NCBI GenBank assembly: GCA_944363715.1
Contig: CALVUX010000016.1
Coordinates: 1 to 38,076 of the forward strand
Direction of reading: 5' to 3'
DNA: 38,076 nucleotides
Origin: an uncultured Bacilli bacterium
GTDB lineage: Bacteria > Bacillota_I > Bacilli_A > RF39 > UBA660
The notes under the pieces were generated by a model. It was not told the DNA's origin. It did no database searches and saw nothing but the letters and a program-made list of their open reading frames with translations. The position numbers and the translations under genes were made by a program. Shown here piece by piece: positions 13,018 through 15,178 of this stretch (the first letter of the stretch is position 1; the number at the start of each line of letters is the position of its first letter).

Positions 13018-14868
13018 TTAACTGGCTAGATCAATGGTAAAAGGATTATTTTTTTGACCAGTCCCTGAAACTATAACGACACTTTGCTTTAAATTCAAAC
13101 TTGGTCTTATACCAACATTTCTTGATATTGATGATGGATTTAGCACTAAAGCACTACCACTCGTGCTCATACTCCATACTGATTGATTAGAAGCCGGAGT
13201 TAAAGTCCAATAATAAGTAGTAAGACCAGTTGCAATATTTTCTTGATTAGATGCTAAATTAAATTGTCCTGCCATTAATTCTCCATATCTTAATAGTCCT
13301 ACTTTAGCAGTAATAATATTTGTAGTTAAAGTTGTCATATCAGTATTTGTATATTTAGAATAAATATAATTTCTTCCATCTCCTACAGTTCCTAAATACC
13401 AAGTAGTATCATCTTCTATCATATCAACTTGATCACTTGTTAAATAACTATTAAGATAATTCCCATTTAAAAATGTTCCTATAGTATTATTTTTTGAATA
13501 AAGTGCAGAATTTCCAAAAGTTGTAGATTTAAAAATCCCACTATCTTTCAAGGGTTCAGCACTAACTATTTTTGTTAGTCCCTCTTTCTCATGGCTTACT
13601 ATTCGATATAAATTATTTTCTCCTGTTCCAAACTCTATATATTCACCACTGTACCTAGTATTTAATAATGTTCCATTTAAATTAGTATCATTATCTCCTT
13701 CTAAGCGATATGGATCTTCTTCTGTTCCAGTTCCATCTACTGTTTTAAGTCCAGATTTTAAATTCACTGATGGTCTAACACTATGGACATAAGTGGTATT
13801 AGAACCACCACTAGGATTAGTAGAAAAATCAACTGAAAAAGTCCAAACTTCGTTATCATTATATGGAGTTATAAGCCATGTATCTAAAGAGTTTTGTATA
13901 TACCCTCTATTATAGGTAGTATTAGTATAGGACATTACAATTTCGTATACATTTAATAATCCTACTGGAGCCGTTACCAAAGTTGTTTTAGCAGGCTTAT
14001 CAGTTGATGTTGTCATAGTAGCATTCCAAATACTATCCATTTTAATAAATTTCTCAGGTTCTCTTAAATTACCTAAAAAGCCATCTACACTTGTGTCATT
14101 CAACCACTTTTCCATATAACTGCCTTTAAATGTACTATCAGTATTATATGACATAGTTGATATATTCCATTGTGTTACTAATTTTACAGAATTATCACTA
14201 GGGTCAATAGATACTGCTCTCCATAACTTTCCACTATACCAAATATAATTATCAGGTTCTTCTCCAGTTATAAAGGTCTGTTCACTATCTGTTGTATTTA
14301 TATTATTATCTACATCGCTTAACAGTATATTAGATAATTCTACTGCATACTTATCAAATAAATAACTATTATCTTGCAACTCTAAATCATTATAATCAAG
14401 CCCTACCCCTACTCCTAAAGTAATAGTTATATCACTATTAGAATTATTAGTAATTCTTATTATATAGGTATTACTACTTCCACTTGTACCGTTCTTCTCT
14501 AGATTTACTCCCTTTGCTTCTGGTGTTATATTATAGCCTTCTTTTTCTAAATATCCCATATAAACATTACTAGGTAATCTACCCATATAATAAAAATTAA
14601 ACCTTGCTATTCTATTATTAGGATTACTTAATGTTAATATAAACTCTTTACTACTATTAGATGGTACACTTAAAGTATTAGATTCTTTTCCATCTACTTC
14701 CAACTTATAAGTTAAGTTCCCTGTTACTATACTTATAGCATTACTCTTCTCTTTTGTTACTGTAAACATAGCATAAGAAAAGTAACTTCCTAATATTAAT
14801 AGAGTTATTATAATCATTACTATCATATATATCTTACTAAAACTTGTTTCTAATAATAATTTCTTCAT
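13018..14868 (-). CDS. Large membrane-anchored surface protein with two DUF6273-like repeats
   Basis: A 616-residue exported protein. The N-terminal hydrophobic segment (about residues 12-36) is followed by an Ig-like stretch (FILTLSNPNNRIARFNFYY). Two related domains follow, about 200-390 and 400-616. Each has W or Y near the start (YSGKLWRAVS; TGENNLYRIVS), a FLNGNYLNSYL or YMEKWLND segment, VGLLNVYE or VGLLRYGE, a W-x-L/I-TP motif, and ends in RPSVNLKSG or RPSLNLKQS, then a short GTGTEEDPYRL-like box. This matches the DUF6273-type proteins of gut Firmicutes; function is unknown, carbohydrate or surface binding is a guess. AAGGAG lies seven bases before ATG 14868. A G9-bearing mini-gene and terminator lie directly upstream. 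Confidence 0.8.
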   Translation of the reverse strand: MKKLLLETSFSKIYMIVMIIITLLILGSYFSYAMFTVTKEKSNAISIVTGNLTYKLEVDGKESNTLSVPSNSSKEFILTLSNPNNRIARFNFYYMGRLPSNVYMGYLEKEGYNITPEAKGVNLEKNGTSGSSNTYIIRITNNSNSDITITLGVGVGLDYNDLELQDNSYLFDKYAVELSNILLSDVDNNINTTDSEQTFITGEEPDNYIWYSGKLWRAVSIDPSDNSVKLVTQWNISTMSYNTDSTFKGSYMEKWLNDTSVDGFLGNLREPEKFIKMDSIWNATMTTSTDKPAKTTLVTAPVGLLNVYEIVMSYTNTTYNRGYIQNSLDTWLITPYNDNEVWTFSVDFSTNPSGGSNTTYVHSVRPSVNLKSGLKTVDGTGTEEDPYRLEGDNDTNLNGTLLNTRYSGEYIEFGTGENNLYRIVSHEKEGLTKIVSAEPLKDSGIFKSTTFGNSALYSKNNTIGTFLNGNYLNSYLTSDQVDMIEDDTTWYLGTVGDGRNYIYSKYTNTDMTTLTTNIITAKVGLLRYGELMAGQFNLASNQENIATGLTTYYWTLTPASNQSVWSMSTSGSALVLNPSSISRNVGIRPSLNLKQSVVIVSGTGQKNNPFTIDLAS

Positions 14869-14892
14869 CTCTTTACTCCTTCCATTATCACA

Positions 14893-14926
14893 CTATAAAA
14901 AGAATAGAACTTGCCTCTATTCTTTT
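14893..14926 (-). terminator. Terminator or attenuator before the surface protein gene
   Basis: A perfect 10-bp stem (AAAAGAATAG at 14926-14917 with CTATTCTTTT at 14907-14898) followed by T5. The last three bases of the left arm are the TAG stop of the mini-ORF, so a ribosome ending there would cover that arm. Confidence 0.7.
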
Positions 14927-15018
14927 AAGTCATAATGAAAGAAAGTATTATTTAAACTACCATTTTGGTAATTTAAGCACCCCCCCCCGGTAACTTTTAG
15001 TGAACTTAACTTCTCCAT
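14917..15018 (-). CDS. 33-residue peptide with G9 tract (possible leader peptide)
   Basis: A short frame from ATG 15018, eight bases after GAAGG, to TAG 14917. It begins MEKLSSLKVTGGGC; the GGG is encoded by nine consecutive G. The rest is polar with NGSLNNTFF and ends HYDLKE. It has its own promoter upstream, and its stop codon lies in the left arm of a terminator. It may be an attenuation leader for the surface protein, or a small secreted peptide with a GG-type cleavage site; neither is shown by homology. One-base slips of the tract would end the peptide after 14 (G8) or 20 (G10) residues. Confidence 0.5.
   Translation of the reverse strand: MEKLSSLKVTGGGCLNYQNGSLNNTFFHYDLKE
14980..14988. 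repeat. C9/G9 homopolymer
   Basis: Nine C on the + strand in a very AT-rich surrounding, nine G in the sense strand of the mini-ORF. Such tracts are prone to replication slippage, and also to sequencing length error. Confidence 0.9.
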
Positions 15019-15055
15019 ATTTTCTACCTTCTTTCTTTATCTTTTTGTTAACCTA

Positions 15056-15085
15056 ATATTATCACATGATAAACTAATAAGTAAA
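15056..15085 (-). promoter_or_regulatory. Promoter of the mini-ORF and surface protein
   Basis: TTTACT (15080-15085), a 16-bp spacer and GATAAT (15058-15063), or 18 bp to TAATAT. It starts transcription about 30 nt before the mini-ORF. No better promoter is seen between the mini-ORF and the surface gene. Confidence 0.5.
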
Positions 15086-15122: not shown

Positions 15123-15159
15123 AGAAAATTAAAAATTGACCTCAAATTTAAGGCCAATT
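15123..15159 (-). terminator. Terminator of the Glu-rich membrane protein gene
   Basis: AATTGGCCT pairs with AGGTCAATT (one wobble), followed by TTTTAATTTTCT. The 18 bases at 15123-15140 recur exactly at 34606-34623 in the nadE terminator. Confidence 0.7.
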
Positions 15160-15178
15160 CACAAAATCCACATATTTT

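Follow-up and report, generated by a model that had tools for sequence, protein, structure and literature searches.

A short leader open reading frame (ORF) containing a tract of nine G residues precedes a putative surface-protein gene on the minus strand of the window, a 38,076-nucleotide stretch of DNA from an uncultured Bacilli bacterium. We propose that the locus is a phase-variable attenuator, in which tract length sets the leader reading frame, with a second lock acting on Shine-Dalgarno (SD) sequences. We place the probability of this reading at about 0.84.

According to the proposed mechanism, transcription would start 5' of the leader ORF and replication slippage would alter the length of the G tract read by the ribosome. 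With one length class (G9 in the window, to which G6 and G12 are equal) the ribosome would cross a CTTTCTTTCAT box and stop in the left arm of the terminator. A ribosome at this position would block the hairpin, RNA polymerase would proceed and the surface gene would be on. With the two other length classes the ribosome would come off before the box and the terminator would form. The untranslated box would then pair with the SD sequences of both the surface gene and the leader, leaving leaky transcripts untranslated. Up to about 28 such switches per genome would govern different surface proteins, with most of them OFF.

The original prediction, made from the window alone, was that the tract controls the surface gene by attenuation. 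The results below support this interpretation; switching within populations and transcription readthrough are inferred only. Three elements go beyond it: some 12 copies in the genome, the experimental precedent of pil1 and the second lock, which we consider likely.

The leader locus in the window

The locus comprises the following features.

15058–15085, minus strand: possible leader promoter, TTTACT-16-TGTGATAAT; weak, from a consensus scan only
15025–15035, minus strand: leader SD region GAAAGAAGGTA, with 11 bp complementary to the CTTTCTTTC box
14917–15018, minus strand: leader ORF, 33 codons plus stop, MEKLSSLKVTGGGCLNYQNGSLNNTFFHYDLKE; ATG at 15018, TAG at 14919–14917
14990–15005, minus strand: bipartite motif GTTCACTAAAAGTTAC, a degenerate copy of GTTWACAANNNGTWAC, just 5' of the tract
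14980–14988, minus strand: G9 tract (contingency tract); 6–13 G in relatives
14946–14979, minus strand: spacer holding both OFF-frame stops (14975 for G8, 14959 for G10); ON frame open
14935–14945, minus strand: CTTTCTTTCAT box, translated in the ON frame only; proposed anti-SD element for leader and surface gene
14898–14926, minus strand: intrinsic terminator hairpin, with the ON-frame stop (14919–14917) in its left arm
14876–14888, minus strand: surface-gene SD region ATAATGGAAGGAG, complementary to the CTTTCTTTCAT box
13018–14868, minus strand: switched gene, for a putative surface protein of 616 aa that has a membrane helix at its N-terminus and matches DUF6273

The 33-codon leader and its G9 tract (14988–14980) are present as predicted. 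The leader stop had been described as the last triplet of the left terminator arm. It does lie in that arm, but the fold places it 2 nt before the arm ends. The hairpin has 12 bp and a loop of 5, is followed by a U-rich stretch and has a free energy of about −11 kcal/mol (−15 kcal/mol and z = −4.05 for the extended fold). We simulated different tract lengths in the window leader. Translation stopped at 14919, in the terminator arm, with G6, G9 or G12. With G8 or G11 the stop was at 14975, 56 nt earlier, and with G7 or G10 it was at 14959, 40 nt earlier. Both distances fall within the 30–60 nt or so that had been expected for tracts of the wrong length.

The surface gene was thought to lack a clear promoter of its own, and an independent promoter would have refuted the attenuator. 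No promoter-like site was found by consensus scan of the window between the terminator and the surface-gene ATG at 14868. Across the region, the same type of scan gave promoter-like sites at chance level. Another terminator-like hairpin, at 15133–15160, separates the leader from the 371-aa gene upstream, so a promoter specific to the leader is to be expected. An Rfam search of the window returned a tRNA as its sole match.

The G tract could instead be a promoter spacer, as at porA of Neisseria, with its length tuning transcription initiation, and a TTTACA-like sequence is indeed found 5' of the tract in most copies of the element. However, promoters with the tract as spacer scored 6.9, compared with 7.1 for shuffled spacers, and 9 of 12 was reached by 3/176. 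Moreover, spacer lengths differ while the reading frame is kept. Since a tract between −35 and −10 boxes performed no better than shuffled spacers, the porA-type arrangement was rejected; we see next to no chance that it is correct.

Leader frame, terminator and tract length among copies

The genome that contains the window (1.40 Mb in 39 contigs) was searched at the DNA level for paralogous leaders. There are 12, with tracts of 7–11 G, and they are mostly 5' of surface-protein genes. The genome has 12 G runs of at least 8. These leaders account for 11, and the exception is a prophage relative, situated in a tail region and preceded by a related sequence. Hence, the placement of the G9 tract in a leader is more than chance. 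The window locus and the copy at C1:3479 are predicted to be ON and nine copies OFF, while the C3 copy is without a clear leader. At the second ON copy (G000 C1:3479–3657, L006) an ON-frame leader is accompanied by a degenerate terminator (−3 kcal/mol), and this copy is probably locked ON. The C3 copy (G000, L082:4475) has a TGA just 5' of its G7 tract and is probably locked OFF.

We then searched the genus (35 genomes) for elements, requiring an unaltered CTTTCTTTCAT box. This yielded 177 elements in 27 of the 35 genomes, with a maximum of 28 per genome; a scored leader start is present in 157 of the 177. Exactly one frame is open beyond the box in every element (177/177), and the two remaining frames stop 5' of the box, again without exception (177/177). 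The stop of the open frame falls at +23 to +32 from the box start, at the end of the left terminator arm, in 170/177 elements. This three-frame rule was met by 121/121 distinct spacers (16–44 nt), compared with 21.4 ± 4.2 in dinucleotide shuffles. For mutually dissimilar spacer clusters the figures were 16/16 and 2.7, respectively. The copies are related by descent and p-values therefore overstate independence. Invariance of the box is not evidence, because the elements were gathered with CTTTCTTTCAT fixed; box variants exist (CTTTCTTTAATC, CTTTCTTTTGTT). Judged from these comparisons, leader translation and its frame are the target of selection, for which the three-frame rule is the strongest evidence. 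A second class of leaders (L018, L019, L050, L061 and similar) has long N-termini with repeated QGKI(I/N)RQFWGKLIRQ units.

The terminator hairpin was found in 139/140 distinct copies, with a mean of −12 kcal/mol and a left arm that ends at the ON stop. Its arms co-vary, with AGAATAGA/TCTATTCT in some copies and GAGCAGGATA/TATTCTGTTC in others. At one pair the change is double-sided, being U-A in 50 sequences and C-G in 47. The RNAalifold consensus for the whole attenuator is weak because loops and SD spacing vary. Taken together, a long frame that is kept, short frames that are closed and a terminator that co-varies show selection for the frame and terminator-arm logic put forward at the outset.

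The long frame is also conserved in its ending (...TFFHYDIRAG or ...TFFHYDLKE), as might be expected if the leader were a functional small protein switched by the tract, with the terminator merely following. Conversely, the copies have unrelated N-terminal and central portions, and the frame in which the motif 5' of the tract is read varies. The constants are the stop in the terminator arm and the closure of the other frames. We regard a role for the leader as a small protein as highly improbable.

A minority of elements (including L017/L081 and L019/L083) have a second promoter-like sequence before the surface gene, often with the palindrome TGTCAAAAATATTGATATTTTTGACA. In these copies the leader, frame rule and terminator are all intact. 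Here the leader seems to control little and the gene should be independent, which counts against the attenuator reading.

Tract length ranges from 6 to 13 G. A fixed tract length in all strains would have spoken against the original prediction, and this is not what we found. Two orthologs of the window locus, which share its neighbours (the 371-aa gene and a spoVB-like gene), show 99.05% identity across 4,922 nt. The sole indel is in the tract, which has 11 G in one and 9 G in the other; the G11 copy is predicted to be ON and the G9 copy OFF. Copies flanked by these neighbours are also present in about 10 other genomes, where the tract has 6 to 11 G. ON-frame leaders account for 31 of the 157 scored, which is below one third (p = 0.0002) and counts against the attenuator reading. 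Thus, judged by the majority sequence in the assemblies, most switches are OFF. Reversible slippage, and so switching within a population, is inferred from this variation across genomes, and homopolymer errors in metagenome-assembled genomes are not excluded for single copies. Tract lengths might even be static, or assembly noise, and the leaders ordinary attenuators that are either constitutive or OFF. The mode of 9 G (91/177 copies) and the absence of read data leave room for this. It is nevertheless unlikely, given the range of lengths among copies, two assemblies that differ over 4.9 kb by no indel other than a 2-G change, and the confinement of all G runs of at least 8 in the genome to leaders or the relative.

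The switched proteins are mostly 400–660 aa long with an N-terminal membrane helix; their surface location is inferred from such sequence features. They belong to several N-terminal families, for example MKKLLLETSFSKIYM... and KKKENIIIIVVLV...GVSYAAF, and some contain DUF6273. AlphaFold predicts a mainly beta structure for the window protein, with a single helix at the N-terminus (mean pLDDT 78). A fold search with this model found no convincing solved relative (best E 0.026).

The box and the motif before the tract

The CTTTCTTTCAT box is complementary to two SD sequences. In the window, the predicted duplex with the leader SD has an energy of −13.5 kcal/mol and that with the surface-gene SD −13.0 kcal/mol. 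The mean for box and surface-gene SD was −11.8 kcal/mol in 85 elements, compared with −7.3 kcal/mol for 95 control genes with similar SD sequences (p = 3e-19). It was only −6.2 in the 38 elements in which the gene start is remote or a different promoter precedes the gene. For box and leader SD, the values were −13.6 kcal/mol (134 leaders) and −7.6 kcal/mol (186 controls; p = 8e-47), and the duplex is usually a gapless helix of 11–12 pairs. When RNA up to the terminator was folded, the box paired with the leader SD in 100/103 leaders. When folding was extended to the gene start, it paired with the gene SD in 60 and with the leader SD in 42. Hence, the two pairings compete in the folds, which is a point against the proposed reading. 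A stable pairing of the G tract with CTTTCTTTC was rejected as the main structure; it appeared in 3/103 folds only, the box preferring the leader or gene SD. The complementarity is thus specific, and a second lock through the box is likely. Its anti-SD action is inferred from computed complementarity. On this inference, both OFF stops are 5' of the box because only ON-frame ribosomes clear it.

The same data raise the possibility that control is purely translational. Tract length would determine whether the CTTTCTTTCAT box is covered by a ribosome, and the box would accordingly free or mask the surface-gene SD. The hairpin would be minor as a terminator, much as in translational attenuation at erm or cat leaders. 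The high specificity of the box–SD complementarity is in line with this, as is the position of both OFF stops, always before the box and not merely before the terminator. Against this, a U-tailed hairpin is present in 139/140 copies, it co-varies, and the ON stop is in its arm. We think it improbable that translation alone is controlled, but the option deserves to be kept in mind.

The attenuator with its second lock, as preferred here, leaves one conserved element unexplained. This is the 16 nt motif GTTWACAANNNGTWAC, which precedes nearly every such tract and is conserved whatever the leader frame. In four genomes (~5.7 Mb) the motif occurs 55 times and is followed directly by NTNGGG in 49 cases; the reversed motif, used as a control, had 2 matches in the same genomes. 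Motif plus G7 was found in 15/372 genomes of the family, representing 8/150 genera, and the reversed pattern plus G7 had no match in the 372 genomes.

The exact element pattern was not found outside the genus, in the 149 other genera sampled. A looser search revealed the same attenuator logic in genus g104, where the motif is in a leader ending in a terminator arm, with another spacer. In genus g73 the motif is within prepilin-like genes and the tract shifts the frame of the gene itself. The prepilin-like genes of genomes G106 and G141 (L352, L355, L358, L363, L371, L381), which have an FTLIEL motif, carry a GTTAACAAATAGTAA-type motif and G8–G11 in the N-terminus. To judge from their sequences, these genes of other genera would vary in phase by frameshift in the classical manner, again with this motif.

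In the prophage tail region of the window's genome (G000 C23:2586–2595, L079:2586–2595), a G10 tract directly follows GTTTACAATATGTTACAT in a short leader. This leader precedes small tail-fibre-like genes (MNEVLKDKDEKILNPKIPRYE...) and adjoins a GH25-like lysin; relatives are present in two other genomes (L347, L386). The arrangement suggests a phase-variable prophage tail gene. Viral contigs contained no attenuator, no motif plus poly-G and no prophage variant.

Motif and poly-G may together form a portable, dedicated contingency cassette. An unknown DNA-binding factor would recognise the motif and govern slippage or recombination of the tract, and the cassette would have been adopted by attenuator leaders, by the leaders of prophage tail genes and by prepilin genes within their coding sequence. 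We raise this because the motif stands before almost all tracts irrespective of frame, and because it occurs with poly-G in 8 of the 150 genera, with none for the reversed control in 372 genomes. It is no more than a tentative suggestion.

Comparison with known switches

Among the papers that could be searched, leader-frame attenuation has one experimental precedent as a phase switch, in one species. This is the pil1 (and pil3) pilus switch of Streptococcus gallolyticus (Danne et al., 2014; PMC3894217). There, GCAGA repeats in the leader move the stop from before to within the terminator, and mutants proved the dependence on leader translation (PMC3894217). Like pil1, the elements described here have a repeat tract in a leader ORF, a stop set by frame before or inside an intrinsic terminator and a surface structure downstream, and heterogeneous expression would be expected. 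Several features of a pil1-type switch are present at the window, namely a short leader ORF with an SD 5' of the regulated gene, a repeat within that ORF, three frames that lead to three different stops and a surface gene (its location inferred from sequence) with no promoter-like site of its own. In 177/177 elements one frame ends in or beyond the terminator and the others before it.

In translational attenuation, as at erm and cat leaders, an antibiotic stalls the ribosome in the leader. Here too, leader translation would free a sequestered downstream SD. The defining relation, that of the gene SD to a leader segment uncovered by translation, holds here as complementarity and not as pairing itself. 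Unlike erm and cat, tract length would be in control, not antibiotic stalling, and a terminator is also present. Poly-G tracts also act as contingency loci in Neisseria and Campylobacter, where they are part of the controlled gene itself, in its coding sequence or its promoter spacer. A slipping G tract would likewise control surface molecules in our case, but from a separate leader ORF. The prepilin-like genes of a related genus (G106) are of the classical Neisseria and Campylobacter kind.

We found this combination in no other paper, in a literature search without most subscription journals. With a genus-wide regulon in uncultured gut bacteria, most of its switches being OFF, every cell would display a surface coat of its own. 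The ON or OFF state is legible in the DNA, so metagenome reads could be used to score surface repertoires directly. Further switches of this kind could be sought by the three-frame rule, which is a clean signature.

Attenuation was proved by experiment for pil1, whereas here there are no experimental data and it is deduced from sequence. The apparent novelty relative to pil1 is in the repeat, the number of loci, an apparent SD lock and a dedicated motif. Thus, the repeat is a mononucleotide G tract and not a GCAGA pentamer; the element lies before unrelated N-terminal families, in about 12 copies here and as many as 28 in one genome; and a box complementary to both SD sequences is combined with a conserved bipartite motif 5' of the tract.
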